Below are positions 3,812 to 63,856 of a stretch of 64,000 nt of DNA, piece by piece. How positions within the stretch are numbered: the first letter of the stretch is position 1; each line of letters begins with the position of its first letter. The translations under genes and the position numbers were made by a program. This DNA is from Lachnospiraceae bacterium (GTDB lineage: Bacteria; Bacillota; Clostridia; Lachnospirales; Lachnospiraceae): the NCBI GenBank assembly GCA_017626095.1, contig JAGAJL010000011.1:27250-91249 (forward strand). Reading direction: 5' to 3'. Under the pieces are notes generated by a model that had not been told where the DNA came from, did not search any database, and worked only from the letters and a program-made list of their open reading frames with translations.

Positions 3812-3876
3812 ATGTCATCCTCCCAAAATTATTAATAAATTTAATACTTAATGTCCCAACACAAACATCACAATAA

Positions 3877-5009: not shown

Positions 5010-5179
5010 ATTCTGTCTCCTTATCGTAATGCTCTATATCGATATTATAACAATATCGGCTTGCACTATAACTGCATTATTTTACATGTAACAATATCAT
5101 TTTACGCATCAGCCTTAGATAAGTCAATTTTTATCATACGACAAAACGGAGCAGACACCATTTGTCCGCTCCGCTCTAA

Positions 5180-5523: not shown

Positions 5524-5547
5524 AGTGCCGTCTTCTCCCTTCCATAA

Positions 5548-6228: not shown

Positions 6229-6251
6229 TTTTTCTTTTCCCCTTTAAAAAA

Positions 6252-7013: not shown

Positions 7014-7076
7014 ATAACCCTGCGTCTCCATTTCTGTTTCATCTATTGAAACCAATTTTTCTAATCAAACGCTATC

Positions 7077-7733: not shown

Positions 7734-7812
7734 AGATACCATTCTCCCTGCGCATTTCTATTATCGGTATTCAAGCCAATCAATTTCTTCTAAAATAATG
7801 TTTCAAATTGAT

Positions 7813-8721: not shown

Positions 8722-8916
8722 GACTGCTCCTTTCGCTTGCAGCTTCATATGAAAATCCACTCACGCTTCATGAAGTATTCATATTCATATGATACTATAA
8801 AAAACATGTCAACTGTATGTCATGTTTTTATCATACATGTTCAAATAATTTTTTCATGAATGACATCCCGCTGAATCCGACAATTTTACCTCCGGCACCA
8901 AAAGCATCAAGGAATT

Positions 8917-9300
8917 CTATATCGTAATTTCAATCAGATTTCCCTCAATAGCCATAATAAGGCTCTCATAATATCCATCACCTGTTATTCGAGGTCCACT
9001 GATGACTTCATATCCATCCTGCTTTAATCCGGCCGTTATTAAATCAACTTTTTCTTTACTGCCTACACTAAATGCAATATGTATAAAACCCGTTCTTTGA
9101 AGTAATTTTTCGCCATCGTCCATATTGGGCTTATTCATAATCTCTAATCTTGCACCATCCTCAAAGGTTAAGAAATATGACTGAAAACCTGTCATTTTGT
9201 TATGGTACCTATGATTGGATACTGCCCCAAAATAATGTTCAAAAAATTCCCTTGCTTTTTCTAAATTCTTTACATACATGGCTACATGTTCAATTCTCAT
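8917..9300 (-). CDS. VOC-family (glyoxalase/bleomycin resistance-like) protein
   Basis: A 127-residue single-domain vicinal-oxygen-chelate protein: it begins MRIEHVAMYVKNLEKAREFF, has RLEIMNKPN and GFIHIAFSVGS, and ends GNLIEITI. Potential metal ligands are His5, Glu (LEI), His (IHIAF) and Glu (LIEI). This arrangement is common in dimeric lactoylglutathione-lyase-like proteins of unknown substrate. AAGGAG is 10 nt upstream of the ATG. It is separated by 39 nt from the MBL gene, and the two are probably co-transcribed. Confidence 0.85.
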   Translation of the reverse strand: MRIEHVAMYVKNLEKAREFFEHYFGAVSNHRYHNKMTGFQSYFLTFEDGARLEIMNKPNMDDGEKLLQRTGFIHIAFSVGSKEKVDLITAGLKQDGYEVISGPRITGDGYYESLIMAIEGNLIEITI

Positions 9301-18600: not shown

Positions 18601-21600
18601 CTGTTCATCACCATTTAAGTTATCCGGAAGTCCTGTCACAGCCTGATTCGTATCATCCTTCCATGTCACAGTCTCAGTCTCTGTGACTTCTTCCCCTACT
18701 GTATATTCATCGCCGTTTTTTGCCAGCTGATAATAGATTCGTTTCCCTTTTTCATCCAGCCCGACTCCGTAATAGTCTGTCCTTGTTAATTCCCCCGCAT
18801 CCGTAGTTACATCATATTGATATACTGTAAGCTCAGGTCTGCCCATATCGGTATCAGCCGGAATTACAACCTCCTCTGTTACCAGCTGGGTTGTAGTTGT
18901 CGTTCCATTCTGCTTCTGATAATCGGATTTACCCTTGTATGGATCTGCAAGTGTTCCACCACCCGTATTATCATGCCCTGTTACCGCAAGCTCCGCATCC
19001 ACGCCTATTTCACCCACGTGAAGAGTTGCCGCATCACTATAATACTGTATCAGTGAAGCAGAACCTGCATAGCCCACCTTGAATACACAACGGTACTGAC
19101 TGCCATTATCCTCCGTTTTCACGTCGGTTACCCGCAGGGTACTGCTTTTCGCTCCGCTTATATCTTCCCAGCTTCCTCCTGTCACTTTCTTCTGCCACTG
19201 GAAATTTGTTGCCTGGTATACATCTGATACAACAGCAATATTAGACTTGAAGACTGCGTCTGTCCCCGGCTTCACGCTACAATCCTTTGGAGAAGTAATC
19301 TCTACAGAGGCAAGCCCCTCCGGAAGTGTCGTCACGGTAACCTCCTCACTCATGACAGATTCGCCCCGATTCTCTCCGAATTCGCTGTAAGCACTAACCG
19401 CATATGTATAAGAAGTGTTTGGAACCAGCTTTGACAAACCAAACTGATTTTCCGTACCGTCCACCACACCAATCTGTATCTTGGAGCCGTCCGGATAGAT
19501 TTGGTAAATCCGATATTCCTCCGGATTCCTACCACCAAATTCCCAGCTGAGCTCCGCTGTCGTAGATGTGATGTGATCCGCTCTGATATTCGTCGGCGGC
19601 GTCGGTGGCGCCGTCACATTCGTTAACACATACCCGAGAACCGGAATTTCTGTATCGTCCAACTTCGTCTTCCAGTGTGCAAACCGCCATGTAAAGTCAT
19701 AACCGTCCACCTTCTTTCCGGTCACTGCACCGGACTTGGAAATACTGCTCATATTGATAGTAGAATTTCCGCTGCTGGTGACATAGCCTGCCCCACCTCC
19801 AATCTTCGTTCCAAAAACGATTCCATAGGCGCTGAAGGATGCACTCATCTCATAGGAAAATGCACTTTCCTGCTCCTGACTGTAAGTAAAACCCTGGCTG
19901 ATTGTTCCTCCGCCGTTATAAGAGGCGCTCTGAGTGCTGGTTATCGCGTCCGTTAATCCTGCAGTGCTATTCCGATATGAAAATGGATTTCCCGGATCGG
20001 ACAATGTGACGCCCTCCACGATTTCAGAAAGGCCATACTGTCCCGCAACACGATTGTACTCCTCCACGGAAATCATACTCGTTAAAAGTGTTCCCTCCTT
20101 TGCAAGCACAAGGTCCGCATTACTGTTCTTTACCTCATAACGCCACACCGTCACCGGTCTCCGATATACAAGCACCATGTTTTCTCCGGTGTCATTGGAG
20201 TAATTCAACTCATACTCTATGGCGGTGCTCTCCGATGTCTCCCATGTAAAACTATTCTCAACTGTAGCCTCAAAACCTGCGCCGTTAGCAAAGCCTGCGG
20301 TCAAATCATCAACCTGATATTCAAAGCCTACTGTAATCTCCGTGGACAGTCCGTTGGATGTGGTCACACTTGTCCCAGAACCTTCAGATTTTCCGTAGGC
20401 CGTCTCGCTGTTCCCGGTGTCTCCTCCGTCCACCTCCTTGAAATACGGCGCTGCCTCCAGAAGTGCAAGAACCTCCGGCTCCGTATAGGTCAAAGAAGCG
20501 TCCTTGACCCGCGCAATTGTACTGTCATTATCTATATCCAACGGGCATAAAGAGACATAAGCATTACCAATCTGCTTAATTACATAATCCGTACTACTAC
20601 AACTCCAATTCCCGCTACCGTTCTTCTGATAAGTATAAATTTTGAAGAAATAATCATTTCTACTGTCTCTCTTTTGACATGTTGTAAAAATGGCCTGCTC
20701 CCTGCCCTCCACGTTGCCGTCGAAGTTGCCGCTGACTGCATCCTGTACGATATTGTTGGAAATGACACAACCACCGATTCCATTGTCATTGTCATTAAAA
20801 TAACTGTCACGGTAAACCTTATCCAGCGTTGCGCCGCTTTCTTTTAGCTCATATACCGTATCGGAAATCAGCACAGAAGCCTTCTTTCCTGCACCATCTG
20901 CCTCAAAGATTGTTACCGGAAGAAGACTGTGCACATCGTCCCCTTCCTTGTGACCGCCCTCCGTAAACTCACTGACTGCATTACCCGAGAGTGCCTGGTT
21001 CATACCCGCCTCATAGCTGCCGACCGTCGTCCCATACTCTGTTTTGGTCGCTCCTATGCATCGGGTAACATAGCTTCCGATGGCATCCGTCATGTTATCG
21101 CCATCACTTCCATGCTTATCAATCCAACCGGCCGTGAAAATCTCCGGATAATCCGTACCTGTAATGGATACGATGAGATTTCCCACATCAGAAGATGCCC
21201 ACCGGAGCCTCTTCGCATTATTGTAACCGCCGGTGTAGCCTGATGTCTCCAGACGGAACGACTGCTTCCATGCATATTTTGCTGCACCGCTGTCATCCTG
21301 TCCCTGATTCACATAATCATAGATAAACATCTGAGAATGACGCCTTTTTACATCGTTCGCCGAGCAGTTGTTCATTCCGGCGGTAATAATCAGCTCATCC
21401 ACATTGTCATTGTCCGTATCCGCTGTAAGAAGCTGCACCACCGGGGCGTTTTTTCGTACCTTTCCGTCGTCTTTGTTATCCCGGGATGCATCCTTCACAC
21501 CAAGAAGGCTGTATACCTTGCAGAATTCTCCTTTGTATGCAATCTGTCCGGATTCATCTACTGTATACTCCCAAATTCCCGGATACTTGCCCTCCTTCTC

Positions 21601-22263
21601 CATCTCCGGCACATACACAAGGACAGAATCCCTTCCATCGCCGTCAAAATCCCCTGCTGCAACGGAAAGAAATCCGGTATTGTTATGGGTCTCCGCACCA
21701 TTCAGGAAAGCAAGTGTGTCCTTGCTTCCAAGCTGCACAGTCTGACTTACCCGGGTACCGCTTTGATCCGTGATAAAGAGCTGGGCATACTTCTTATCTT
21801 TCCAGTAGCCTATGGTAGCCGTATACCGTTTCTGCCCCTCCCCCTTGAAATCACAGGGAGCCGAATGCACAATGGAAAAGCCGTCTTTATTTCCTTCATT
21901 CCTATTACCCACAACATTGCCGCTCGTAACCGCTTTTATGGAACCAACCTTTCCATCCTCATTGTAGTTGTATGTATTCCATGCTCGATTGTTGGAGTCA
22001 CCCTTTGCAACAAAGAGCTCAGACACCGTGTTAATCGGCACCCAGCCTTCCGTACCATACGGATTGCCCTTTATCGCTTCATCTTCATTAAACTCCTGAT
22101 CTGTCCGGATACCGAACGCATCCGTTTCATCCGTTGCTCCCGCTGTTTTCGCCGTTTCCTCTGTTCCCTCTGTTGCTTTCGCCGGTATGAAATCCAGTGC
22201 AAGCGGAATCACCAGACACACGACAAGTACGATACTGAGCAATTGCTTTTTTATTTTTCTCAT
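12637..22263 (-). CDS. Giant secreted multidomain surface protein (FG-GAP-like, FN3, Ig, InlB B-repeats, Big_2)
   Basis: A 3208-residue exported protein. A signal peptide (1-30, KKQLLSIVLVVCLVIP, cleavage near AKA) precedes a region with FG-GAP/calcium-loop-like motifs (DFDGDGRDS ~205, DTDNDNVDE ~282, NFDGNVEG ~513). Residues ~630-860 are rich in Ser/Thr/Gly beta strands. FN3 (~890-980) and Ig-like (~985-1080) domains follow, then a beta-rich middle and about twelve ~75-90-residue units with the VTFTAKP...WTVNG signature of divergent InlB B-repeats. The end has two Cys-paired repeats, an FN3 and a Big_2-like domain. There is no LPXTG or other anchor. A GGGAGG lies 12 nt before the ATG. It is likely an adhesin or matrix protein; a toxin-like role for 630-860 is speculative. 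Confidence 0.88.
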   Translation of the reverse strand: MRKIKKQLLSIVLVVCLVIPLALDFIPAKATEGTEETAKTAGATDETDAFGIRTDQEFNEDEAIKGNPYGTEGWVPINTVSELFVAKGDSNNRAWNTYNYNEDGKVGSIKAVTSGNVVGNRNEGNKDGFSIVHSAPCDFKGEGQKRYTATIGYWKDKKYAQLFITDQSGTRVSQTVQLGSKDTLAFLNGAETHNNTGFLSVAAGDFDGDGRDSVLVYVPEMEKEGKYPGIWEYTVDESGQIAYKGEFCKVYSLLGVKDASRDNKDDGKVRKNAPVVQLLTADTDNDNVDELIITAGMNNCSANDVKRRHSQMFIYDYVNQGQDDSGAAKYAWKQSFRLETSGYTGGYNNAKRLRWASSDVGNLIVSITGTDYPEIFTAGWIDKHGSDGDNMTDAIGSYVTRCIGATKTEYGTTVGSYEAGMNQALSGNAVSEFTEGGHKEGDDVHSLLPVTIFEADGAGKKASVLISDTVYELKESGATLDKVYRDSYFNDNDNGIGGCVISNNIVQDAVSGNFDGNVEGREQAIFTTCQKRDSRNDYFFKIYTYQKNGSGNWSCSSTDYVIKQIGNAYVSLCPLDIDNDSTIARVKDASLTYTEPEVLALLEAAPYFKEVDGGDTGNSETAYGKSEGSGTSVTTSNGLSTEITVGFEYQVDDLTAGFANGAGFEATVENSFTWETSESTAIEYELNYSNDTGENMVLVYRRPVTVWRYEVKNSNADLVLAKEGTLLTSMISVEEYNRVAGQYGLSEIVEGVTLSDPGNPFSYRNSTAGLTDAITSTQSASYNGGGTISQGFTYSQEQESAFSYEMSASFSAYGIVFGTKIGGGAGYVTSSGNSTINMSSISKSGAVTGKKVDGYDFTWRFAHWKTKLDDTEIPVLGYVLTNVTAPPTPPTNIRADHITSTTAELSWEFGGRNPEEYRIYQIYPDGSKIQIGVVDGTENQFGLSKLVPNTSYTYAVSAYSEFGENRGESVMSEEVTVTTLPEGLASVEITSPKDCSVKPGTDAVFKSNIAVVSDVYQATNFQWQKKVTGGSWEDISGAKSSTLRVTDVKTEDNGSQYRCVFKVGYAGSASLIQYYSDAATLHVGEIGVDAELAVTGHDNTGGGTLADPYKGKSDYQKQNGTTTTTQLVTEEVVIPADTDMGRPELTVYQYDVTTDAGELTRTDYYGVGLDEKGKRIYYQLAKNGDEYTVGEEVTETETVTWKDDTNQAVTGLPDNLNGDEQISNTIEGSSKMYYLMAEVKGQTRDLISDAPDAVDTRLQSATDITYYWRNGSKYYTYGENGSVGAEVTLTADKTSEFYDIYYMDDSMVILGRGETWTEEDTSESTEENKVYMEESDYLYTKLDKSVDSYTVTLMQVSHENVYMAGETILTDFNSGGLVAVTEKKEETIEVPIWQTARGTFLTLTATVKDAADGTAAKGAVVDFYITNTETGTVQNLTGTVGNDGKASISWCASTRALYKMQGVVRQSGGYQRSETTTKYYDAAGTYAKETTEYRLAILKNGEDTAGTVSYGDIISLVLQERTLDAADTEKEWKNSDNTAFVFTKRASDGKETVLKDSTWKTEAGGKYIFAAYPKPETADGSSDITVEQLIPSDKVATATLEVKKVSVSISPVWQVNTIPENESEVEIVADLENEELESEKLKEIFDINCEYFDLQDRDAASGRYMVTLSYKDSGEKVNTFRNNFSATLLSDSFIKKPGSAKIRFTCGENGTLTGQYSDNNYPMESGVSKTAGTRLTFLARPKDGYAVGTWTINGTKYQPGQDNLPEGMELNDSGTQLRIERFNTDKHVQTVGGEKSLQIDVEFISVSKTITYSAGVNGSITAVNAAGHTLESGARVNNGSSVTFTAKPENGYIIDHWTVNQKTWCWDGTDETYRETTLTLKDIREAKTVAVAFRKQTGNYTVSADVGAENGEADASLGRITTVYAGTENSVDLSKKLPEGISLTFTALVTEPSNNMVKEWRISTDGGNTYETIAGSGGQESMTLYNISEDTRVRAIVATAQQYRLNYKVRLNGVEVTDTAIAELTAESNGRKITDDEMVSAYIPVNFVLTLGENYYVKAWSDEVSADADDPTKAFLASLTQNMTVTVDIAGKPVVTYEKPENGTIRVTDAADAAKVVASGDFVEPGTDIFMTFTPDKGFEIDELKVNGEVVAAIYTDANGETTDTKCYELAEITADQTIEVTYKAIAQHAVDYSVIYTSAKPNGTLTASADRKGMEIYKIDSLNSGDLVYGGSVVTFTAKPDENYRVKEWIVNGVVQKQSGVTVTENTLSISDVQEATNVTVQFVPRGNKMTIQAGENGKIVSAKVGTIEQLPNIENGFTLGEYASVVITAEADTGYEVEKWTVNDETVKDGDNIYTGTTYTYDGNAGSTGADVKVFFHQIEYSVTWSGQGGAVKANDYDGNGAQIRGGTEVTFTAKPDAGMILDYWTVNGSKVTEESGTILDDTFVWTVPNGKASSPEISTFKIQAIFTEAPYQVTYEQPEEHGTLSAKAGAVSLPSGSEVKGNTVVTFTVAPEDGWMVGSWIVNGETIDSQENTHKVTITSETKVSVTMIPDTYTVTVKKTGKGAVTMDGKSEESYQVPYGGNLTFTAAAEDYWTVKEWKVNDVVVTEGVSKDRMEFNATDIRTDMTVEAVFAAALQFELSYAVEGNTGGSLSATADGEAVILESGQTTTVTGGSRLVFTAEPQNNQMVKAWTVNGETVADNCSNVLVIDEMTENTTVYVSYTAYKGYAIPVDGAGYQITDVERTPSDTTPENEIREDGTLTFRVALDEENGYNAMSSLTVNGYDCIAGRLADESAGGPQGCEELTVTKNKDNSYTITVRKVTGEIAVNVEAHELEKVEAKKATCIEEGNIEYWQCRKEDCKELFQDAEGRKPLTEGDVILEKDMQNGHSYGDPVFTWEGTGSATAAFTCENGCGDVKKISCSVDKKQKGDEITYTATAKFDGKVWTDTKKETIPHSYANPVFTWKGTKSATATFTCKNGCGNVKKLSCSVTSKTGKDTITYTAKVQFNGKTYTNVKTQDLPMKNVDFRLKGRTGTKKIILTWSRVPGASGYEIYRGKCSGKCVKVKTVKSNTVQKWTDTKKKANTDYKYYVLAYKLVDGKKQYCNRSNTIHLAVPTKNTNVKAVRTTSKLSLKKGKQKKLSVKLVYENKRKKLSYHMEGVTFKTTNKKIATVTKNGVIKAKGKGTCYVYVTAYSGAYVKVKVTVR
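13190..13600 (-). repeat. Two ~190-bp direct repeats encoding paired-Cys modules
   Basis: Within the giant gene, two consecutive units encode PVFTW(E/K)GT(G/K)SAT followed by FTC(E/K)NGCG(D/N)VKK, each about 63 residues long. The DNA is also similar (for example, CCATGTAAATACCGG occurs in both). They look like a recent internal duplication. Confidence 0.7.
13860..17140 (-). repeat. Array of about twelve InlB B-like repeat units
   Basis: Successive units share a (V/L)TFTA(K/E)P(E/D) strand, 12-16 residues, then (V/I)(K/G/E)xW(T/I/K)VN(G/D). Counted copies: GTWTING, DHWTVNQ, KEWRIST, KAWSDEV, IDELKVNG, KEWIVNG, EKWTVND, DYWTVNG, GSWIVNG, KEWKVND, KAWTVNG and SSLTVNG. DNA identity between units is low, so this is an old, diversified array rather than a recently expanded one. 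Confidence 0.75.
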
Positions 22264-37284: not shown

Positions 37285-37686
37285 CTATATTTGCTTCCTT
37301 ATCTCATCCACTAGTGTAATATCTGCCGGCAACCAATCTACGGAATCTAATTCATTTTTAGAAAGCCATTTTGCATCTTCGTGTTCTTTTAATTCTAATT
37401 GTTCTGATTCTAATTCACACCAAAAACAATCCATAGACAAATGAAAATTCGGATAATCGTATTCTACAGTCTGAATTAATTCACCAACTTGAATATTCGC
37501 ATTTAGTTCTTCTTTTATTTCCCGAACAAGCGCCTCCTGTGGTGATTCTCCTTCCTCAATCTTTCCACCGGGGAACTCCCATCCACCTTTAAAATCTCCA
37601 TATCCTCTGGCAGTAGCAAAGATTTGCTTTCTTCCATTTTCATCCCGCCTTGCAATTACTGCAGCGACAACTCGTATTGTTTTCAT
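37285..37686 (-). CDS. NUDIX (MutT-like) pyrophosphohydrolase
   Basis: A 133-residue protein with a complete Nudix box: GGKIEEGESPQEALVREIKE, continuing with ELN (residues ~40-62). The N-terminal VVAAVIARRD and the short length match (deoxy)nucleoside-triphosphate pyrophosphohydrolases such as MutT/8-oxo-dGTPase, which clean damaged nucleotides. It is cytoplasmic, with no obvious operon partner other than the truncated EFR1 gene downstream. Confidence 0.88.
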   Translation of the reverse strand: MKTIRVVAAVIARRDENGRKQIFATARGYGDFKGGWEFPGGKIEEGESPQEALVREIKEELNANIQVGELIQTVEYDYPNFHLSMDCFWCELESEQLELKEHEDAKWLSKNELDSVDWLPADITLVDEIRKQI

Positions 37687-41070: not shown

Positions 41071-41250
41071 TCAACTTGGGCGATCTTTTGCTTCCTCCTG
41101 CGCATAAAGAAGATCTAATGCCTGACAAATTACTCCGCTCATCGTCTGATAATGTCTTTCAGCATACGAAACTAACCGTTCTTTATCTTCTGCAGTCATA
41201 CGAATTCTTAAACTTGAATCCTTTCCATCCAATGACGGTTTTCTCGGCAT
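41071..41250 (-). CDS. Small ribbon-helix-helix (CopG/Arc-like) DNA-binding protein
   Basis: A 59-residue protein: MPRKPSLDGKDSSLRIRM forms the beta strand and TAEDKERLVSYAERHYQT with SGVICQALDLLYAQEE the two helices. It is likely a dimeric DNA-binding autoregulator or relaxosome accessory factor. The open frame extends 50 codons upstream through AT-rich DNA, but GGGGGAG precedes ATG 41250. It lies downstream of the helicase/62-residue operon. Confidence 0.7.
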   Translation of the reverse strand: MPRKPSLDGKDSSLRIRMTAEDKERLVSYAERHYQTMSGVICQALDLLYAQEEAKDRPS

Positions 41251-41425
41251 TTCAATCTCCCCCTTCCTTATATATTTTATTCTAATATGAATTGATACAA
41301 ATGTCAATATTATTATCACTATTGTACTAATAAAGATTTCACAAAAACTACAAATATTAATATCGTAAATGCATATCATACACTCCGCCGAAATAATCAT
41401 TTCAAACTACTAAAGGATATAACCC

Positions 41426-41627: not shown

Positions 41628-44600
41628 TTACTTCACAAAAATGTTGTGCTCAGAAGCATCTTTTACAAGTAACTCAAATATTTCGGCATCTTCTTTTTTG
41701 TTTTGAACACACTCATAGAGTACTTCATCAATAGTCCCCTCTGCCTGCAAAAAGATAAAACTGCATATATTTTTCTGACCATATCTATATATCCGATCAT
41801 GGCTCTGGTAATATTCTTCAAAACTGTATGACAAAGAATAATAAATCGCATATTTGCAATTCACAAAAGTAACTCCATATTGTAATGTCTTAGGATGAGC
41901 AAGAATAACGTCTACAGTTCCTTCTTTAAACTGTTTAATACTCTTGTCTTTATCTTTCGTATCGCTATAAGCAGTAACTACTCTTTTCCCAATTTTCTCC
42001 AGAATTTTCTTCAAATTCTGTATTTCATATTTAAACTGACACCAAATAATAACCTGCTCATTACCTATTTCATCCAAAACTCTTAATAATTCCTCTTCTC
42101 TTTGTTTATGAATTTGCGTTACATTTCCGTCTGCATCCAAAAGGAAACCAGAAACTAATTGTCGTAATTTCATTAGAGAAGCCAATTTATTATTGACATT
42201 ATAGATTGTCTTGCTATTCTTGCTTGCCTTTTCCTGTTGCTCAATATTTATGAAATAATCACGATACATTGATTCGTACTTTGTCATAACATCTTTATCA
42301 AGAGTAATTTTTCTAACCATATGTACTGTATCAGGCAATTTCAAGCAATCAGATTTCGAAACAACAATAGAGTGTTTCCCAATCAAATCACTAACCTCTT
42401 TTTCCGCTTCTTCTGATTTACAAACAATTCTATTATTGATATTTACATAGTATTTTTTCTTATACGCTTCATACGACATTGGAAAGTCATTAGGTGCTAC
42501 CACTTTCATTTGTGAAAAATATTCCATTGTATTATTAGGTGCTGGTTTTCCAGAAAGTAAATATACATATTTGCAAGTATCCGCAAAATCTCTTACACAC
42601 TTTGATATTTTACTGGAATAATTTTTTAAAATTGAACTCTCATCGACTATTAGACCATTTACGCCTAACGACTTATAAAACTCAAGATTTCTGGTAAAGC
42701 TTTCTGGATTAACTATATAGTGTTTTGCTTTACCAATCATTATGGAACGTACATATTTTAACTGATTAGCTTTACTGCCATTTTGCCAATCTTCATAGTA
42801 CAAATAGTCATTAAATACTGATCTACCATCCATATCATTCCATCGTCTGTTAATATCCAAATATTGTCGTAAAGTAATATTATGACTAAGCGGATCCAAC
42901 TTCATTTCCGGATAAAAGTTATACTGATCATCCATCCAGGCAGTTAGAATAATTGGTTTTGAACAAATAATCAAAAAACTAGTATCATCTTGTTTCGTCT
43001 TACTTGTAATAATATCAAGTGCAAGAACTGTTTTTCCTGTACCTGTGTCATAAAAAAAGGCAAATTTATCAAACATTTCTGCTATTCTACAAGCAGCTTT
43101 CTGATGAGGTAATAATTTTTCATAATTACCTTCATATCCATCAAAGTTATTTCCAGCAATAAGTTCTGCTCTGATTATTTCCAACTTCTGTTCATTAGTT
43201 AATTTTTCTGAGAGCTTATTTTCTTTACCTTCTATCACTTCTTTTACTAAAGGATCTAATTCTTCTACCGAAATATCAATAGACTGTGGGACTCCTATTA
43301 CTTGCTTTTCTTCCGGAAATGGTGCAATATCATCAAGTAGCTTTGACAACTGTCTTGCCTCATCTGCGGAAAATACGATACCCTTCTTATTCTCATTTTC
43401 CCATGTGCTGATGTCATAAGCATTTTTGTGAATTGCATTTTGTATTGTAGCAAACCATTTTTTCTTTTTTCCTTCACTACTTAACAAACAAATATGCTTT
43501 TTTATTTTCCAAGAATCCTTTTCTAATTGCAGATATTCCTCTGGATATAGAACTTTTAAAATCGTCTTTTTTATTTTTAGGTTATCCTTAAAATATGGCA
43601 AAAGCTCATTCAAAACCTCATGAGCTGCCGCACCAATAGCTTTCTTTCGATTTGTGCCTTTTCCATATTTTTCTATATGAATTTCGTCATTCCAACAAAT
43701 CACTTTTGAACCGAAAACCGCATTATGATCCAAACTATCTGGATGTTGCTCACACGTTTTCTTGCAATGCATTCCATTAGCCTGAACAACTTCCTGTAAT
43801 GCTGTTGTATAATCTGGAATTTTGCTTTCTTTAACTTTATCAAAAAAATAGAATGAAATATTTGAAGCTTTTTCTTCTAACTCATCACTATTTCTTTTAA
43901 TTCCCCTAAGCACAAGTACCGCAATAATACTGTGAAAAATATCAATTTTTAATGATCCATGTCCTTCTTCATTTAAAGAGTTTACTGATTTGGAAGCCAA
44001 CAACATTTTCAACCATTCATCAGGCAATTCATTGTATAGATTTCTCGCATTTAGATATATTCCTCTTTCTCTTGTAACATCTAAATACTCCCAATCAGAT
44101 GTTGCATATAAATAATCAAGAACAAACAACTGCAGTATCTCTGCGCCAATTACTGACAATGCACTATTATCAGCAAATAAGTTCTTGTTCTTCACATCAT
44201 TTTGAATAGACTTATGGACAAACGCTGCATTAACATATTCTATTGGTAAGTCATTTGATTTTATATGTAATGCCGACAGCAACCTGTAAAGCTGTTTTTG
44301 CCTATCCATTGTGATTCTTATTTGTTCATCAATTGTCTTTCCTTTTTGAGAATTTTTAGATTTGAGCGGTATATTTTTTTGAATAATGTACTTCTGCGCA
44401 ACAGATCTCATTGCAGTTTTCTTGCTCTTCCCTTTTGCTGAACATTTATCTTTTCCAATAGTTAATTGGCAAGTAAATGTCAAATCATTATCTGGTCCTT
44501 CTCTATCTAAAATCTCATAAGAAAATGGTAACTTTTTGCCTTGTGCATATTCTTGTAAAATAGTCCTATAATCATAGTTATCGTTTTCTAAAGCTTTTTT

Positions 44601-45005
44601 CATATAAGGCAGTAAGAAATCATATGTGCTATTAAAACCATTTTGTCTATAAAATACAGCTAAAAATTTTGCCGCTATTTCTGTGTGTTTTTTACCTTCT
44701 TCCCCTTTGGAAATATATTGGTAATTTTCCAATTCATATTCATTATAAATTGCATCTGTCACCTGGATATAGGTTGAAGCTATCATTTTACTTATCTCAG
44801 AAGCACTAACAAAAATCTTATTAATATACGCATAAACAGCCAATGCTACTCTTGCAACTGAATGGCCATATACTATAAAATCTTTATTCATTTTTCTGAT
44901 ATTATCATCCTGCGGTTGATAGCTTGCATGATACAAAATTCTATCCAAATCATTTGGACTAATATTTAATTGAAGCTTTTGATAAAGTTCATAACCTTTC
45001 ATCAT
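41628..45005 (-). CDS. SNF2 helicase with two RNase III-like/dsRBD modules
   Basis: A 1125-residue protein. Residues ~15-140 follow the RNase III helical pattern (YGHSVARVALAVYAYI, ISKGEEGKKHTEIAAKFLAV) but lack the catalytic acids. Residues 143-212 are a typical dsRBD: DYRTILQEYAQ, EGPDNDLTFTCQLTIG, KGKSKKTAMRSVAQKYI. A second RNase III-like fold (~235-392; LSVIGAEILQLFVLDYLY in place of LEFLGDAVL) and second dsRBD (~397-470) follow. The SNF2 motor occupies ~620-1125: Walker A DTGTGKT (653-659), DESS (788-791), motif VI QSHDRIYRYGQ (~1067). It probably binds dsRNA or an RNA duplex and translocates. The start is ATG 45005, with GGAGG upstream. I know of no named system with this domain order. 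Confidence 0.82.
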   Translation of the reverse strand: MMKGYELYQKLQLNISPNDLDRILYHASYQPQDDNIRKMNKDFIVYGHSVARVALAVYAYINKIFVSASEISKMIASTYIQVTDAIYNEYELENYQYISKGEEGKKHTEIAAKFLAVFYRQNGFNSTYDFLLPYMKKALENDNYDYRTILQEYAQGKKLPFSYEILDREGPDNDLTFTCQLTIGKDKCSAKGKSKKTAMRSVAQKYIIQKNIPLKSKNSQKGKTIDEQIRITMDRQKQLYRLLSALHIKSNDLPIEYVNAAFVHKSIQNDVKNKNLFADNSALSVIGAEILQLFVLDYLYATSDWEYLDVTRERGIYLNARNLYNELPDEWLKMLLASKSVNSLNEEGHGSLKIDIFHSIIAVLVLRGIKRNSDELEEKASNISFYFFDKVKESKIPDYTTALQEVVQANGMHCKKTCEQHPDSLDHNAVFGSKVICWNDEIHIEKYGKGTNRKKAIGAAAHEVLNELLPYFKDNLKIKKTILKVLYPEEYLQLEKDSWKIKKHICLLSSEGKKKKWFATIQNAIHKNAYDISTWENENKKGIVFSADEARQLSKLLDDIAPFPEEKQVIGVPQSIDISVEELDPLVKEVIEGKENKLSEKLTNEQKLEIIRAELIAGNNFDGYEGNYEKLLPHQKAACRIAEMFDKFAFFYDTGTGKTVLALDIITSKTKQDDTSFLIICSKPIILTAWMDDQYNFYPEMKLDPLSHNITLRQYLDINRRWNDMDGRSVFNDYLYYEDWQNGSKANQLKYVRSIMIGKAKHYIVNPESFTRNLEFYKSLGVNGLIVDESSILKNYSSKISKCVRDFADTCKYVYLLSGKPAPNNTMEYFSQMKVVAPNDFPMSYEAYKKKYYVNINNRIVCKSEEAEKEVSDLIGKHSIVVSKSDCLKLPDTVHMVRKITLDKDVMTKYESMYRDYFINIEQQEKASKNSKTIYNVNNKLASLMKLRQLVSGFLLDADGNVTQIHKQREEELLRVLDEIGNEQVIIWCQFKYEIQNLKKILEKIGKRVVTAYSDTKDKDKSIKQFKEGTVDVILAHPKTLQYGVTFVNCKYAIYYSLSYSFEEYYQSHDRIYRYGQKNICSFIFLQAEGTIDEVLYECVQNKKEDAEIFELLVKDASEHNIFVK

Positions 45006-50216: not shown

Positions 50217-52070
50217 TTATTCAATAATCGTTGCAATCCCTGGTGTCCTTAACAAGTCAAAGAATTCGTTAATTTGATCATGTGATTGCTTAGGATATCT
50301 GCTTGTATAGCGATACTTACAAAAGGTAAATAATATTTCCTTTTTTGCTCGAGACAATGCCACAAAAAATGTACATCTGTCCTCTTCAGGTTGATTTTTA
50401 AAACTCCAAAACGCAGAATCTTCAAGTCCTACAAAATATACGACCTCATACTCTAATCCTTTGCTTTTATGGATTGTCATGATTGGAACTGAATGTAAAC
50501 CCTCAAAGTTTTCTATAGCCAACAACCAATCCATCTCTGTTGTATCGAGCTCCATCCACATATAGTTTTGAAACTTATTTAATAGATCATTTAGATATGT
50601 TCCTTGGCTATATATCGGAAACGTGGCTTTTATGCGCTTTCCTCCCCAGAATTGTATTGCGTGCTTCAGCAAAGCGTGAAAATCCTTCTTACACGTAACA
50701 TCTTGCATCATGCCACTTAATTGTTCTATTTCTTCACTAAGAGCATCTTGCATTTTGAAATAATCATCATTTGACTGCAGAGAACCTATATTCCAGAGAT
50801 CAGCTGTCGTTGACACAATAAATTCCCAGTCATGGGGGCGCTTTCTATCAATAACTAAACGTAGGAGCGAAATTAACATTTCTACGATTGGTTCTTTGAT
50901 TAAATCTTGATAATCATTTTCAATACGAGCAAGAATTTGATGATTTCTAAGTTCTGCAATAATCTTCGGAGCATAATCTTGAGGCTTTTGTTTACAGAGA
51001 ATGCACAACTTATTTGGTTCAATTCCTGACTCAATCTGTGCAGATATATGTTCAGATATTGTTGCCGCTTCGTTCTCCTCATCTTCAGCAATAAGTAATG
51101 TTACCATTCCATCATCTGGTTCCCATTTATCAGAGACACATATTGTACTGTCACTTTCATTTAGTGAAGCATACATCTTTCTTTGTAAATCAACAAGTCT
51201 CGGCGCTGAACGATGATTCATGGTTAGTTTGTGTGTCTCTGCATTAAACTCTGTTTTGAAATCATGAAAGACAGTTTTAAGTGCGCCAGCCCATACCATA
51301 ATGCGTTGTTTGTTGTCACCAACGGCTGTCATTATTGAACCCGAATTCAAAAAGCATTGTTTTACCAATTTGTATTGTAGATACGTTGTATCCTGAAACT
51401 CATCCAAGAAAACATATTTGTAGGTAAGTTGTAAGCCTCGCTTAATCTTATAGTTTGTCTTGATAATGAATTCTGCAAGAATACATATCATTTTAAATGA
51501 TAGAGTTGGTTTGTAGTTGTCAAAGCCTTTCAGCAATAGTTTCCAAACAGTCTCACCCAAATCATTTCGTGTAAAAGGCAATTCAACAGAATCAAGCACA
51601 CGTTCATAGTATGTTCTTAACTTATAAACGGGCAAGTTAAGTGGATTGTTGTATCCTGCTTTTTTAAAAGCCGCATCTATTGTATCCACATCATTAACCA
51701 GATATGCAGCATCAGGCCTTAAAACCTCTGGAAGAGCAAAACGGAAGTGATCCAGAATGCTTTTTGAAAATGCATCATAAGTCATTGATACAAATCGAGT
51801 TTCGATTTCTTTCCCACATCTCTTTATTACTCTTTTTTTTAGATTGTCCGCAGCGTCTTTCTTAAAACTTATTGCTAATATTTTTTGCGGGTCTCTACAA
51901 ATATTTGTCTGAAAAAGGTAGCTTGCTTTTTGTGCTAACAATTCAGTCTTTCCTGCACCTGGTCCAGCAATAACAAGAATATTTTTATTTGTCCTAACCG
52001 CTGAATTAGCACTATCTTCTAAAACAACACCATCACACGGCATCCACTTTTCTGGTACAACAATCTTCAT
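50217..52070 (-). CDS. UvrD/Rep-family helicase, GajB-like
   Basis: A 617-residue SF1A helicase: Walker A AGPGAGKT (35-42), motif II VFLDEFQDT, motif III/IV MTAVGDNKQRIM and LTMNHRSAPRLV, and late motifs PIMTIHKSKGLEYEVVYF and FFVALSRAKKEIL. Its start overlaps the 3' end of the OLD-family gene by 38 nt, so they are translated together. The class 2 OLD plus UvrD pairing is that of Gabija, where GajB responds to DNA ends and activates the GajA nuclease. It is somewhat longer than typical GajB. Confidence 0.88.
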   Translation of the reverse strand: MKIVVPEKWMPCDGVVLEDSANSAVRTNKNILVIAGPGAGKTELLAQKASYLFQTNICRDPQKILAISFKKDAADNLKKRVIKRCGKEIETRFVSMTYDAFSKSILDHFRFALPEVLRPDAAYLVNDVDTIDAAFKKAGYNNPLNLPVYKLRTYYERVLDSVELPFTRNDLGETVWKLLLKGFDNYKPTLSFKMICILAEFIIKTNYKIKRGLQLTYKYVFLDEFQDTTYLQYKLVKQCFLNSGSIMTAVGDNKQRIMVWAGALKTVFHDFKTEFNAETHKLTMNHRSAPRLVDLQRKMYASLNESDSTICVSDKWEPDDGMVTLLIAEDEENEAATISEHISAQIESGIEPNKLCILCKQKPQDYAPKIIAELRNHQILARIENDYQDLIKEPIVEMLISLLRLVIDRKRPHDWEFIVSTTADLWNIGSLQSNDDYFKMQDALSEEIEQLSGMMQDVTCKKDFHALLKHAIQFWGGKRIKATFPIYSQGTYLNDLLNKFQNYMWMELDTTEMDWLLAIENFEGLHSVPIMTIHKSKGLEYEVVYFVGLEDSAFWSFKNQPEEDRCTFFVALSRAKKEILFTFCKYRYTSRYPKQSHDQINEFFDLLRTPGIATIIE

Positions 52071-54138
52071 TAGGTTTCTCCTTTAATGCTTTTTCTGCAG
52101 CAGAAATCAATCGTTCGAATACAGGTGGAATAGTAGAAACCAACACCTCATTGCTAATATGGGAGAACGCCTCAATATGAGTTGATGGTTTTCCTCGGTT
52201 AAGGAAAAAATAAGTGTACCACACCATTAATTTCTTTTGTTCCTCAGAATACGTTTTTCCGTCACCACCACTTTCTTTCAAAGCGTGTCTCACATCATCT
52301 ATAACACGTGCGCAATACTCTGAACAAGGATTTTCTGAGTTTTCAATATCCTTAATATATTTCTGATGTTTCTGACCATTTTCCATAACCATCAGCCGAG
52401 GTCCCTCATCTTTACCCAGTAAACCTTTATACACAGTACCATAATGCTCTAACATCAGAAAATCTATATCCAACGGTGATGAAAAGAAAACATTGTATTT
52501 TTCTAAATAGTTAACCCAACTTTGTAAAATGCCGGAATCATCAACATCCCACTCGTGCATTCCATTGAATTCTTCGTCAGATAAAACCCCATGATTAGTC
52601 TTCAATAATTCCGCTTTATCGTAATTATTTTGAATTAACTGTTCGAGAACATATTTGATTCTACCCCAACCACCCCCTTCTCGTTCTTTATCCAAGTCAA
52701 GCAACGTAATATATGGAATACTCAGGTCATTAAGCAGTCTCCAAAAATGGTTTACATGTCTACCACCCAGAGGGACAACTGATATTCCGCTTGTATCAAC
52801 ATCACCATTTTTTGCATTCCAGATTTTCGGCAAAATGATTTCTTCACTATCACCTTCACCCAAAACAACAAGTTTGGCAAAATACAATTCAGGATAAGCT
52901 TTGACTGCCTCTTTTATAAACTTGTACTGATCTGCCAGTTTTTCTTTATCGGGCAACGTAATTGCACGAACTTTGGTTGTGCAATCATTCACATCAAGAC
53001 GGAAATATCTTAACTTTTCCGGATCGAAGCGTTTGATAATTGCTGTAGAATGAGAAGTTAAGACAGTCTGAGCGTTGTTTTTTGATGCTATTTTTTTCAA
53101 ATTTAAAACCAACTGTCCGATCAAATGAGGAGCAATATGATTTTCCGGTTCTTCTAAAGCAATAATTGTTAAAATAGGAGGCTTATGATTAAATGAAACG
53201 TGTTCAGGATCTGTGTCTATTTCTTTCTGAATTTTTGACTCAACATCGAGAATACTATCAACCAAAGAAATATAAAACAGAGAACGCAAACCATCACTCA
53301 TATCATCAATAGTGCATTCTTTTCCTGTTACTGTAGGTAAAAATACAACCTCCGATTTCTTGATAGAAGAATCAATATCAGTGCTATTAAAACGTAACTG
53401 AGCATTTGAATATCTTGTATCCGAATCATAAGATTCCCATTGTGTATGTATGGAGGTACCAAGAATTGATACGCCTCTTTCCTCTAAAAATTGGTCATTT
53501 AGCTCTTGAATTTTTACTTTAACTTTTTCCTGTGTGGTTGAGCTCCAATTGATGCTATTCATAATCTGATGCATCATTGTGCCAGAAGCATTTTTTAATT
53601 GCTTGGACGGATCTCTAACTGCAGGTACATATATTACTCGAATGCGATCCAGATCTTTTCGAGGTGCGGTGGTTTTACATTCTTCAGTAATTTCTTCTCC
53701 CTCAGGGCAAGTAATATAATAAATTTTACTTTCAATCGCACCCTCTACATTGCTACTTTTTTCCCAAGTAGCCTCTAAACGTATTCGCAAATATGGAGTT
53801 CCATCAGGATTGTCCACAACAAGACTCCTGAAAAAAGTTGGAATAGAAGAAGCACCTTCCTCTCCATTCTCTAATTCATCAAAAACAAATACCGCTTCAA
53901 TATAAAGTTCTTGTGAGTCCATTTCTTCTGGTTTCGTATCTTTCGGAAGATGAAAATCACTTCGCTTTAAAACTCGATCAGCACTATTATCCGAGAACAG
54001 ACAATTCAACGCTAATAATGCTGCTGTTTTTCCTGAACTATTATTGCCAATAAACGATGTAATATCATCAATTTTGATTATCTGTTCATCTTCACCAAAG
54101 CACCGATAATTATGCAGTTTAAGTTTTGAAAGCTTCAA
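52033..54138 (-). CDS. OLD-family ATPase with TOPRIM nuclease domain, GajA-like
   Basis: A 701-residue protein. The SMC/OLD-type ATPase has Walker A GNNSSGKT (31-38), signature SDGLRSL (281-287), Walker B IIALEEPE (325-331) and TSHST. It is followed by a TOPRIM domain: Glu428 in LVVLGEGDSEE and Asp481/Asp483 in LLDLDKE. It probably nicks or cuts phage DNA when nucleotides fall, as GajA does. The start TTG 54138 was chosen because GGGAGG is upstream and the promoter (54176-54204) rules out the longer frame. The C-terminal ~200 residues are extra relative to classical GajA. Confidence 0.85.
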   Translation of the reverse strand: MKLSKLKLHNYRCFGEDEQIIKIDDITSFIGNNSSGKTAALLALNCLFSDNSADRVLKRSDFHLPKDTKPEEMDSQELYIEAVFVFDELENGEEGASSIPTFFRSLVVDNPDGTPYLRIRLEATWEKSSNVEGAIESKIYYITCPEGEEITEECKTTAPRKDLDRIRVIYVPAVRDPSKQLKNASGTMMHQIMNSINWSSTTQEKVKVKIQELNDQFLEERGVSILGTSIHTQWESYDSDTRYSNAQLRFNSTDIDSSIKKSEVVFLPTVTGKECTIDDMSDGLRSLFYISLVDSILDVESKIQKEIDTDPEHVSFNHKPPILTIIALEEPENHIAPHLIGQLVLNLKKIASKNNAQTVLTSHSTAIIKRFDPEKLRYFRLDVNDCTTKVRAITLPDKEKLADQYKFIKEAVKAYPELYFAKLVVLGEGDSEEIILPKIWNAKNGDVDTSGISVVPLGGRHVNHFWRLLNDLSIPYITLLDLDKEREGGGWGRIKYVLEQLIQNNYDKAELLKTNHGVLSDEEFNGMHEWDVDDSGILQSWVNYLEKYNVFFSSPLDIDFLMLEHYGTVYKGLLGKDEGPRLMVMENGQKHQKYIKDIENSENPCSEYCARVIDDVRHALKESGGDGKTYSEEQKKLMVWYTYFFLNRGKPSTHIEAFSHISNEVLVSTIPPVFERLISAAEKALKEKPNEDCCTRKVDAV

Positions 54139-54175
54139 CAAATATCCCTCCCTCGTATCTAATATCTGTATCACA

Positions 54176-54204
54176 ATTATAATACCGATATCATTGTCAA
54201 ACAA
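54176..54204 (-). promoter_or_regulatory. Promoter of the Gabija-like operon
   Basis: TTGTTT (54199-54204) and TATAAT (54176-54181) with 17-bp spacing on the minus strand, about 37 bp before the chosen TTG start. Confidence 0.6.
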
Positions 54205-58171: not shown

Positions 58172-59356
58172 TTATTTATCAAATTCTCTTTTCCTTTTAC
58201 ATATTTCCCTATACTCATCCCTTATCAGTGCATATGACAATAAATTTTCCACCAGAGTCATTATTTCAGGCGTATCCATATACAATAATTCATTATTATG
58301 TACCGTTCCCAGTTCTATTTTCCCATTTTTAATAATAACAGGATATAGATTTTCAAGCAATTCTTTTAGTTCAGAAGACTTGCCACTTCCAATTTTTCCA
58401 ACAGCAATTCTTCCATTATGGTAAAAATGATATGCTTCTCCAATCCGAACAATATTTTTGTCAACAGAGTATTGCAGGGCATTATGCGGTCTATGATTAT
58501 CCTGATCTACTGAAACTGTAAGAATTGTAGATGTTCCATAATCAAAAAAACTCAAATTCATAAAAAAAGTATTTTCGTGATATTTTACCAGGAATGATCT
58601 ATATGCTCCCTGATATGTTCCACCAGATGCATTTCCACATGACAACAGTCGAATACCATAATCCTTAAGTAGCGCGAAAATCTTATATTCCCTCTCAGGC
58701 AGGCTATGGCTGGTATCAAGAAAACATTCCCATAAATTTGTCAAAAACGCTCTCATTGGTACCGGAGTATTCGGATTAAATTCATAACCACAATAATAAT
58801 CTCTTTTACTCTCCAACTCATCATACGAAAAACGTGGTTTGGGCGGCTCTTCTAACAGCTCATCCCCTTCTCCCTTTAACATAGCTTCATATTCAGGGAA
58901 TAACTTCAGTTCTATGTACTGATTACGTTCTTCACAATACTTTGCAACAATCATATCTGTACCGTTTGTGACAGCAATATAATCTGCACCAAGGCAATCT
59001 GCATAATCACATACCTGCTGAATTTCCGCATCACCCAGCATTATTTCTGGTGCTTTACACTCAATAATCGCTAATGGTGAAATAACATCTTTGCTTTTTG
59101 TATATCTTTCGATTACCAGATCCGCACGCCTTATGCTGTCCACCCCATACTTTGATAAAAGCATTTCAACCTGCAGCATATTTGATGGCACATGAATCAC
59201 CTTTAACAGAAATTGTACCATCGTCTGCCGAATTATTTCTTCCGGAGTTTTTAATATCATTCTTTCACGCACCGGATCCAAAAAGTATTCTTTTCCATCA
59301 GAAACACAAGTATCCGGTAATTTCAAATTTTCCAGCTGTTTTTTAATCTCATACAT
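58172..59356 (-). CDS. Stand-alone HsdR_N-type PD-(D/E)XK nuclease-domain protein
   Basis: A 394-residue protein. Residues ~35-165 form a Type I restriction R-subunit N-terminal nuclease domain with the acid SIRRADLVIER and catalytic LAIIECKAPE. The rest (residues ~170-394) is not the HsdR helicase; it has the unknown FEYDELESKRDYYCGYEF-like region and a beta-rich end. No specificity or methyltransferase subunit is adjacent. It may be a defence nuclease or a restriction-like sensor; the function is unknown. Confidence 0.7.
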   Translation of the reverse strand: MYEIKKQLENLKLPDTCVSDGKEYFLDPVRERMILKTPEEIIRQTMVQFLLKVIHVPSNMLQVEMLLSKYGVDSIRRADLVIERYTKSKDVISPLAIIECKAPEIMLGDAEIQQVCDYADCLGADYIAVTNGTDMIVAKYCEERNQYIELKLFPEYEAMLKGEGDELLEEPPKPRFSYDELESKRDYYCGYEFNPNTPVPMRAFLTNLWECFLDTSHSLPEREYKIFALLKDYGIRLLSCGNASGGTYQGAYRSFLVKYHENTFFMNLSFFDYGTSTILTVSVDQDNHRPHNALQYSVDKNIVRIGEAYHFYHNGRIAVGKIGSGKSSELKELLENLYPVIIKNGKIELGTVHNNELLYMDTPEIMTLVENLLSYALIRDEYREICKRKREFDK

Positions 59357-61195: not shown

Positions 61196-63856
61196 TCAAT
61201 TACCTTCTGATACACCAAATTTTGTTCTGAAATCCTCATAACTATTTACCCAGTCAAATTTAATTTGGTCAGATACTGCTTTAAAGTGTAGCTTACCACA
61301 ATGAATCTTATTTCGCTCAACATCTTGCAGATTCGCTTCACGCTTTCCTGCTTTTGTCTCTACAATAAAATAAATGCCTAGAGAAGCATCCTCTAATGCT
61401 TCTTTTTTGCAAACCACTGCCCAGTCAGGGCTGTAATTTCCATATGGCGTATCAATCACAAAACCGCCCTTTTTTAACTTCGTGAACAATAATACATTTG
61501 TATTATTCTCAAGTTTATGTGCAAATTCTGCCTCACCTTCACTATCCATTTTATAGTACTCATTCATTGCTGAACTTCTATCAGATCTTGCTTGGAACAC
61601 TCTCCATTCTTGTTCAAAATCTTCAGCTGAAATCGTATCCAGTTCAAAAATATTACTCTCATCCAGCTCATAGCCATTGATAACTTCATAAGAAATAATA
61701 TTAGCCGCTTTTGTATCATTCAGTTTTTGCAAGATAAGCTGAGTAACCTCATCCAGAATATCCTGATTGTTCAATAACTCCCGTTTATCAATTCCTTGAA
61801 TTATCTTAAAAATAGCCAGTCGAGGTAGCATGGTATGATGCATAATATAATTTGCAATTTCAAAATCAGATTTTGGATCAGAACTTATTTCAATTTCCAT
61901 CTGTTTATCACCATAGACAGTTTCTTCCATTACAAACATCGCAGATGAATTAAATTTTGCTCTGCCTGTTTCCACTTTATATTCATTTTTTGCCTTTTTA
62001 AACAATAGTGTCTGATCAATATCAAAAATGCAATCCTCAATAAACTGATCTTTATCAATCTTGAACTTATATATGGTTCGCTTCATCAGATTCTGGCGAA
62101 GTGCCATATAGATCTTTTTAAACTCTCCTTCCGTCACATAAGCCCGCACTTTATTTTCATATGGGGCATTATCTCCATTCACAATTTCAATTTTCCTTGT
62201 ACCCTTCTGGATCATCATTTCTTTAAACTGCTTTTTGATAATTTCTGCATGTTCATTTAAGGTATCATTCACGAATATCATATTATCAAAAATTTTCGTA
62301 ATCTGGTCAGAAGAACCCTTCATCATATTATTTGAATTCATTACTCCTGCTGATACTAATTCTTGTTTAAAGATGTCAACCAATTCAGGTGTAATCTTGG
62401 AGGCTGGAACTCCTGCTGTTTTTAATGTAGTAATCAGTATTTCAGCAGTTACTTCATCTTTATCAAAATGCATATTATCATTGAAATCTTTCTGTAATGC
62501 CGCTGCAAAATGATCATAATAATCATTGGCAATGACTGTTAACTCATTGATTCTCTTATCTATGCACCTATTACCTGTAATATCAACCGGTAACCTCAAT
62601 CCTCGGCCAATCTCCTGTTTTTTGGCAATATCAGAGCCTCCGGATTTCAATGTGCAAAGAGTAAATACATTCGGATTATCCCAACCTTCTCTAAGTGCTG
62701 AATGCGAGAAAATAAATGCTAAAGGCTCATCAAAAGAAATCAATTCATCTTTCTTTTCCAAAATCAGACTAATTCCTCTATCGATATCCTCTTGTGACTT
62801 TTTCTTGATTTTCATATTGCTTTCATCAAGAGACGAATCCCAACCTTCGACTTCTACGGCGTTATTCTTTTTATCTCTGGCAAAATATCCCTCCCTGACA
62901 GCCTGGACATTCATATATTCCGGAAAGTATTCTTTATTCTGTTCCAATAGATGTGTATGAGTACTTACGTATTTCCTGTATTCCTCATCAAAAATTCGCA
63001 AGTATTCTCCTCGTCCATCTGGTGCAGTATCATCACGTACTTTATCGACTGCATCAATAAAGAACAGTGTCAACGCTTTAATTTTTTTACCCTGACGAAT
63101 TATATTAAACTGTTTTGAGAAATGATTTTCTATTGCCAGTCTAATCTGAATACGTACTGCCTCATTTTTTTCAATCTCATAATTACTATGTCCCTGATCT
63201 AAAGAAAAGAAGCCTTCCTTTGTTGCAATAGCCAGTGGCTTGAGTTTATGTGGTTCCTCTGCAATACGATAATCCTTGTATTGTGGTAATCCTCCAGAAA
63301 GTTCTTCAAGAGATACTCCTCCACCAACATTAAAAGTCCTGAAGCGGATTGTTCCGCCCTGCTTTTGAGAAAATATTTCTATCTTAGCTTTCAAATCACT
63401 GGTAAAAGACAAATATCGCACATACGGATAGTCTTTTGGAATTACCCCGTGAACTGTCTTCACCACAATCTTCTTTACAAGGTCTTTCTGATATGCAGCA
63501 TAAGAATCCAATTTGTAAATTTGATTGTATAACTGCTTATGTGTAGCAGAATAGCGCAAAGTAAACAAAGGCTGAAGTTCTTCAATCGCCTCTAATGATT
63601 TTGATTTTTTCTTTGCAGTTCCTTCAATCTTCTGTGGTTCATCAATAATTACAATCGGCTTGATATATTTAATATCTTCCCAAAGATTTTGATCATACTC
63701 ATCTGTTTTTCTAAGTATATTGGTATTTTTGTTAAATGCCTGGATATTCAAAACACAGATACTTAAATCGGAGCTCTCCACTAATTTAGAACTAATCTGC
63801 TTGGGATTATCGCTGTTATAAATAAAAATGCAAGATGAAATCAACGAAAAGACCAT
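61196..63856 (-). CDS. res: Type III restriction Res subunit, 5'-truncated
   Basis: The frame has 886 codons, but genuine Res sequence begins at about IYNSDNPKQ (~63815) after an alien start MVFSLISSCIF. Visible features are the DEAD-type IDEPQKIEGT, SATHKQLYN, FIFSHSALREGWDNPNVF and KQEIGRGLRLPVD. The C-terminal endonuclease region (YSPDWAVVCKKE, YFIVETKAGK) has the PD-(D/E)XK pattern. Motif I (Walker A) and the preceding ~150-200 residues are missing, so ATPase and restriction activity should be lost. The upstream Mod methyltransferase gene would have lain beyond the junction at ~63828. Confidence 0.82.
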   Translation of the reverse strand: MVFSLISSCIFIYNSDNPKQISSKLVESSDLSICVLNIQAFNKNTNILRKTDEYDQNLWEDIKYIKPIVIIDEPQKIEGTAKKKSKSLEAIEELQPLFTLRYSATHKQLYNQIYKLDSYAAYQKDLVKKIVVKTVHGVIPKDYPYVRYLSFTSDLKAKIEIFSQKQGGTIRFRTFNVGGGVSLEELSGGLPQYKDYRIAEEPHKLKPLAIATKEGFFSLDQGHSNYEIEKNEAVRIQIRLAIENHFSKQFNIIRQGKKIKALTLFFIDAVDKVRDDTAPDGRGEYLRIFDEEYRKYVSTHTHLLEQNKEYFPEYMNVQAVREGYFARDKKNNAVEVEGWDSSLDESNMKIKKKSQEDIDRGISLILEKKDELISFDEPLAFIFSHSALREGWDNPNVFTLCTLKSGGSDIAKKQEIGRGLRLPVDITGNRCIDKRINELTVIANDYYDHFAAALQKDFNDNMHFDKDEVTAEILITTLKTAGVPASKITPELVDIFKQELVSAGVMNSNNMMKGSSDQITKIFDNMIFVNDTLNEHAEIIKKQFKEMMIQKGTRKIEIVNGDNAPYENKVRAYVTEGEFKKIYMALRQNLMKRTIYKFKIDKDQFIEDCIFDIDQTLLFKKAKNEYKVETGRAKFNSSAMFVMEETVYGDKQMEIEISSDPKSDFEIANYIMHHTMLPRLAIFKIIQGIDKRELLNNQDILDEVTQLILQKLNDTKAANIISYEVINGYELDESNIFELDTISAEDFEQEWRVFQARSDRSSAMNEYYKMDSEGEAEFAHKLENNTNVLLFTKLKKGGFVIDTPYGNYSPDWAVVCKKEALEDASLGIYFIVETKAGKREANLQDVERNKIHCGKLHFKAVSDQIKFDWVNSYEDFRTKFGVSEGN

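Follow-up and report, generated by a model that had tools for sequence, protein, structure and literature searches.

The fusion of a helicase with two RNase III domains in Dicer is presented as unique to eukaryotes in the accessible part of one paper (PMC4571572), and bacteria and archaea are described in the available part of another as having no Dicer ortholog (PMC5303251). Bacterial proteins of the types HEPN-RNase III-double-stranded RNA-binding domain (dsRBD) and HEPN-SNF2 were reported in a restriction-modification (R-M) context in the accessible sections of a third (PMC3710099). Here, a gene of a Lachnospiraceae bacterium (assembly GCA_017626095.1, contig JAGAJL010000011.1) is described that encodes two tandem units of RNase III-like domain and dsRBD, followed by an SNF2 motor. 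It lies on the minus strand of a stretch of 64,000 nucleotides (contig positions 27,250 to 91,249), hereafter the window, and its product of 1125 amino acids (aa) is called P0001. As in the HEPN proteins, RNase III-dsRBD or SNF2 parts are joined to other domains, but there, as far as the accessible text goes, the RNase III is single, presumed active and in a separate chain from the SNF2 motor (PMC3710099).

No named bacterial system with this domain order was found in Pfam, NCBIfam, PADLOC or PHROGs. Likewise, among the matches listed in the literature searched, where most subscription papers are missing, no bacterial protein was built this way. This agrees with an earlier interpretation made from the letters alone, referred to as the sequence-only reading. 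We tentatively regard P0001 as a rare accessory defence protein in which a non-cutting RNase III pseudo-dimer would read duplex or structured RNA and be coupled to an SNF2 translocase, with a probability of about 0.4.

Tandem RNase III units before an SNF2 motor

The gene occupies a single open frame at 41628-45005; the plus-strand translation of this region has stops throughout. By eye, GGAGG stands directly upstream of the ATG at 45005, which makes a longer frame from 45080 less likely. The layout is not a product of chance or misassembly, since a second genome, the metagenome-assembled genome (MAG) Lachnospiraceae SIG304 (locus L050), carries a full-length ortholog of the same plan which is 63% identical. 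The overall proportions of changed sites are 0.24 for nonsynonymous (pN) and 0.74 for synonymous (pS) positions, the latter close to saturation. Identity is highest in the motor (80%), followed by the middle region (57%), dsRBD 1 (55%), the RNase III copies (51%) and dsRBD 2 (35%). The tandem RNase III and dsRBD units before an SNF2 motor in one chain are therefore a real observation, as the sequence-only reading had proposed for this gene.

Each RNase III copy resembles bacterial RNase III (rnc) over nearly the whole NCBIfam model TIGR02191, which matched P0001 in two stretches (9.9e-29, 100.4 bits). When the copies were scanned apart, copy 1 covered positions 13-216 of 219 (62.5 bits, 4e-17) and copy 2 positions 12-218 (50.3 bits, 2.1e-13). 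Neither the whole protein nor either copy reached the equivalog cut-off of 166.25 bits. By hhalign, both copies matched a set of nine ordinary RNase IIIs (copy 1 99%, E 2e-18; copy 2 97%, E 1.1e-10). In Pfam, Ribonucleas_3_3 matched residues 257-370 with 34.6 bits, slightly under its cut-off of 35, and the L050 protein with 36.1 bits, above it. The dsrm family matched P0001 in two stretches at E <= 1 (1.7e-14 for the whole protein); at E <= 0.01, one stretch was found in P0001 and two in the L050 protein. The best solved match of both copies is the RNase III of Thermotoga maritima, so both look bacterial, and an origin from eukaryotic Dicer by transfer is not indicated. A direct profile comparison of the two copies was weak (7.8%). 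A recent duplication is thus not shown, and two separate captures are possible.

The motor contains the motifs GTGKT, DESS, SGKPAPN and QSHDRIYRYGQ, which are largely invariant over nine aligned motors. The Walker A, DExx and QxxxRxxRxGQ features of the SNF2 motor family are thus present. SNF2-rel_dom (56.6 bits) and Helicase_C (48 bits) both scored above their Pfam cut-offs, and the best library match was phrog_62, a DNA helicase (306 bits). HsdR, HsdM and HsdS domains were not found in P0001 or its L050 counterpart; only the general ResIII model passed its cut-off on the front of the motor (24.1 vs 22.5 bits). Likeness to DpdE is confined to the motor part (residues 770-1110, 65 bits) and does not extend over the whole model, and the NCBIfam model of DpdE gave 23.9 bits against a cut-off of 500. 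The middle region matched no Pfam family at E <= 10, and no PAZ match was found in P0001 by Pfam at E <= 1. A PC4-like domain, suspected by eye in this region and in a small downstream open reading frame (ORF), was dropped, as Pfam was empty at E <= 10 and the two did not match each other. Domain limits (Table 1) are our own placing, from Pfam and NCBIfam matches, the alignment and the structure model.

Altered catalytic motifs and the modelled front part

The first catalytic acids of ordinary RNase IIIs lie in the motif NERLEFLGDAVLE. The alignment shows that it is replaced in P0001 by NKDFIVYGHSVAR (copy 1) and NSALSVIGAEILQ (copy 2), and in the L050 protein by NKEYILWGNTILK and NATVSVIGSEITA. 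The second acidic motif, SDxxEA, falls in an alignment gap in copy 1 of both proteins; in copy 2 of both, D is kept and E is changed to H or K. The predicted change of the catalytic acids is hence confirmed, and the ortholog agrees. Since the acidic motifs are altered in both copies of both orthologs, none of the four is expected to be capable of cutting.

The front part (residues 1-500) was modelled with AlphaFold at moderate confidence (predicted local distance difference test (pLDDT) 74.3, predicted template modelling score 0.63). RNase III and dsRBD folds were obtained, with dsRBD 1 as helix, three strands and helix at residues 146-209; a lack of these folds, which the sequence-only reading had named as refuting it, was thus not observed. 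The model matches bacterial RNase III structures and, when the two copies are taken together, the tandem RNase III cores of Drosha and Dicer. The two copies therefore probably pack as an intramolecular pseudo-dimer, and the suggestion that these folds serve as a dimer or ligand platform appears likely in view of the motif loss and the core match. Mitoribosomal chains were also among the structure matches. They presumably represent mL44, an inactive protein with a degenerate RNase III and a dsRBD, in which the fold is likewise used as a non-enzymatic RNA platform. In contrast to P0001, mL44 is a single ribosomal unit without a motor.

P0001 shares with Dicer and Drosha two RNase III domains in one chain together with a dsRBD, and, in the case of Dicer, a motor of helicase type within that chain as well. 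Nevertheless, its acidic motifs are lost, a dsRBD accompanies each RNase III domain, Pfam gave no PAZ match, and its motor is a C-terminal SNF2 motor instead of the N-terminal ERCC4/RLR-type helicase of Dicer. RIG-I-like receptors differ as well, as their RLR helicase is followed by a C-terminal RNA-binding domain, whereas the SNF2 motor ends P0001. The resemblance to Dicer is thus one of plan only: the layout claimed by the sequence-only reading stands, but the motor is of the SNF2 type and matches phrog_62 DNA helicases best. Compared with ordinary bacterial RNase III, P0001 has two copies without intact acidic motifs, fused to a motor and scoring below the family cut-off. With a different motor and dead nuclease sites, the tandem RNase III and helicase plan looks like an independent assembly in a bacterium, and P0001 would act as a sensor-motor that follows the plan of Dicer and RIG-I-like proteins but appears to have been put together separately out of bacterial parts.

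Relatives, candidate small partner and genomic context

The motor has many relatives with other front parts. They occur in Butyrivibrio, Pseudobutyrivibrio, MAGs of Bacillota and Clostridia, a Thermoanaerobacterium plasmid and viral contigs. Among the matches listed, the nearer ones are 40-46% identical and others 33-34%. In the seven relatives scanned with Pfam (E <= 0.05), neither RNase III nor dsRBD was matched, unlike in P0001. In the motor tree (midpoint root, four of ten candidate outgroup loci included, long branches flagged), P0001 and the L050 protein form one group (100/99), which is nested with L051, L052, L053 and L055 (99/99). The most parsimonious view is a single gain of the tandem RNase III front by an exchangeable motor. 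Homologues that are restriction subunits, which the sequence-only reading had named as evidence against it, were not found: neither the full-length ortholog nor the motor relatives are of this kind. The SNF2 proteins encoded at L051, L052 and L055 have about 1100 aa; on both sides of the shared motor they carry long, largely unassigned parts, and they perhaps represent a family with exchangeable front domains. L003 and L055 encode the same protein.

The full plan is rare. A scan of 84,980 species genomes, which requires short motifs so that distant members may be missed, gave 225 pattern stretches and seven relatives: one full-length (L050), five with the motor only (L051-L055) and one ordinary RNase III (L056). 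The following genome sets overlap. P0001 matched 175 of 392 genomes of the order; among the matches listed, none but the one in its own genome spans the RNase III part as well as the motor. Residues 1-645 matched 66 of 397 family genomes, its own included, and the other 65 (frames <= 336 aa) were regarded as ordinary RNase III. Profile A3 (residues 1-620) found only its own genome among 391 genomes of the class at 1e-25, and its own together with a 244-aa frame (G398) among 144 relatives at 1e-20. In the genus (five genomes, its own included), the sole other match was a motor alone (G718, 23%). No fused relative was found in viral_contigs, where one search gave motors only.

A 62-aa ORF follows the gene directly in both genomes; in L050 (12381-12569) it stands 11 bp after it. 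It belongs to no Pfam, PADLOC or NCBIfam family, and its PHROGs match is weak (0.025). Of 299 family genomes, four gave a match at E <= 0.01, its own included. The other three were taken as chance (E 0.003-0.009, inside frames of 214-574 aa). No match was found in viral_contigs. Its conservation makes the 62-aa protein a candidate partner. In L050, an ORF for an HNH endonuclease (12822-13334) lies shortly downstream of it.

Defence genes lie near the fused gene in both loci. In L050, hsdR (2934-6173), hsdM (6189-7601) and hsdS (7603-8970) precede it on the same strand, and the fused gene begins 15 bp on, at 8986, or at 9001 if the Met aligning with the window start is used. In the window, a Gabija pair (50217-54204, minus strand) gave strong matches to PADLOC PDLC00103 and PDLC00090. 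The gene is accessory, and defence is the common theme of the two loci, in support of the proposed role in phage defence. The flanks match genomes of the genus in part (three of five, its own included, in one search and one of five, its own, in another), so no clean empty site is shown.

Table 1 Position and support of the gene, its domains and neighbouring features (window coordinates)
Feature	Residues or length	Position	Strand	Support or remark
Whole gene, RNase III-dsRBD-RNase III-dsRBD-middle-SNF2	1125 aa	41628..45005	-	frame, Pfam, NCBIfam, ortholog L050
RNase III-like copy 1	1-143	44577..45005	-	both acidic motifs lost; alignment, model, hhalign, TIGR02191
dsRBD 1	144-210	44376..44576	-	Pfam dsrm 146-205; alignment; model
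RNase III-like copy 2	236-397	43815..44300	-	signature motif lost, second motif keeps one acid
dsRBD 2	398-475	43581..43814	-	more divergent; alignment, model, hhalign
Middle region	476-630	43116..43580	-	conserved (57% identical to L050), no known domain
SNF2 motor	631-1125	41628..43115	-	GTGKT, DESS, SGKPAPN, QxxxRxxRxGQ; Pfam, PHROGs
62-aa ORF	62 aa	41426..41614	-	13 bp downstream of gene; 49% identical to L050:12381-12569
PLD nuclease-helicase-DUF3427 protein	994 aa	37780-40764	-	matches mREase_IV
GajB (Gabija)		50217-52070	-	727 bits, PADLOC
GajA (Gabija)		52033-54204	-	856 bits, PADLOC
HSDR_N_2 protein		58172-59356	-	between relaxase and restriction ORF
Type III restriction-like ORF		61196-63856	-	aligns to its profile from position 151 of 989 on

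Proposed function and competing explanations

A defence role of P0001 would involve several steps. The catalytically dead RNase III pair and the two dsRBDs would form a valley which holds an A-form duplex without cutting it. The ligand would be double-stranded RNA (dsRNA), structured RNA or an RNA:DNA hybrid from phage or mobile-element transcription. Its binding might switch on or position the SNF2 ATPase, whose motifs are present. The motor would then translocate on nearby duplex, most likely DNA, and strip or stall the transcription or replication complexes of the invader. The 62-aa protein may act as a regulator or subunit. SNF2 motors are known to act mainly on DNA. As this type favours a DNA track, the most economical version is that P0001 would read RNA duplexes at invading DNA and act on that DNA. 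Nothing points to an RNA guide, and the notion of an RNA-guided motor is not supported; overall, the sequence-only reading is partly supported. A bolder version, a bacterial dsRNA-sensing immune motor in which a single-chain, non-cutting, Dicer-like pseudo-dimer drives the SNF2 translocase and whose plan arose independently, is doubtful. If duplex RNA is indeed sensed, the viral pattern read by Dicer and RIG-I would have a protein sensor in bacteria, too. The large gene and the 62-aa ORF form a two-gene cassette, which makes the sensing question directly testable.

Several points weigh against the defence reading. As SNF2 motors act mainly on DNA, there are simpler readings than a motor driven by dsRNA. 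The structure model is moderate, copy 2 is modelled less confidently, with stretches of pLDDT < 50, and the root-mean-square deviation is high when the Drosha/Dicer core is aligned over both copies. GPxH and the third contact region of dsRBDs have RNA-contact roles; dsRBD 1 lacks the His of GPxH and dsRBD 2 lacks GP. As basic residues are kept in the third region (KK in dsRBD 1), RNA binding is likely but not certain, and it may be weak or altered. The defence neighbours may have come along as other cargo of a variable region; the Gabija pair is some 5-9 kb away from the gene and the type III ORF some 16 kb, with mobile-element genes in between. As full-length members are limited to two so far, two of two loci is a small sample.

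The best surviving alternative, although itself unlikely, is a DNA helicase of a mobile element which serves replication, repair or transfer and whose exchangeable RNase III-pair front docks structured nucleic acid, with no role in defence. The plasmid, viral and clostridial origin of the closest motors, their other fronts, the phrog_62 match and the nested position in the tree are all consistent with it, as are the MobC, relaxase and Y-family polymerase genes near P0001 in the window. It does not account well for the three type I R-M genes directly before the gene in L050. Moreover, a search with residues 1-500 found nothing among 72,556 plasmid records, and 50,697 phage records gave a single weak match that covers part of them (residues 20-183, 29%, E 7e-6).

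Less likely still is an accessory factor of restriction systems, which would join or replace the R-M translocating part, with the RNase III pair serving for recruitment. The tight hsdRMS linkage in L050, together with the DUF3427 helicase and the restriction-like ORFs in the window region, would fit such a factor. Against this, Pfam recognized neither hsdM nor hsdS in the window ORFs that were scanned, the front part of the HSDR_N_2 protein matches MTase_I models only weakly, and the neighbour that the two loci have in common is the 62-aa ORF rather than an R-M gene.

It is improbable that the RNase III copies associate with the RNase III of the host and make use of that enzyme's active site, with motor-driven dsRNA cleavage as the result. 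RNase III works as a dimer and the host has an ordinary one, but with two copies per chain and a model aligned to the intramolecular Drosha/Dicer core, outside pairing is unnecessary. A toxin-antitoxin pair, in which the 62-aa protein restrains a large protein that is harmful when active, is the least credible explanation: the small ORF lies directly 3' of the gene in both loci, but the catalytic motifs are lost in both nuclease copies and the two proteins have no toxin family matches in Pfam, PADLOC, NCBIfam or PHROGs.

Further features of the window were noticed. Between the gene and the DUF3427 helicase, a small ORF (41071-41400, minus strand) has, by eye, a ribbon-helix-helix-like end; it matched DUF6290 only at E 0.035. 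A Nudix-like ORF, also recognized by eye, lies beside the DUF3427 protein at 37285-37686. The type III restriction-like ORF near the window end is a frame without its front part. The guanine-cytosine content is 0.39-0.41 in the first 12 kb, 0.46-0.49 from 12 to 32 kb and 0.32-0.38 from 32 kb on, and the richer part holds an open frame of 3208 aa (12637-22263, minus strand).
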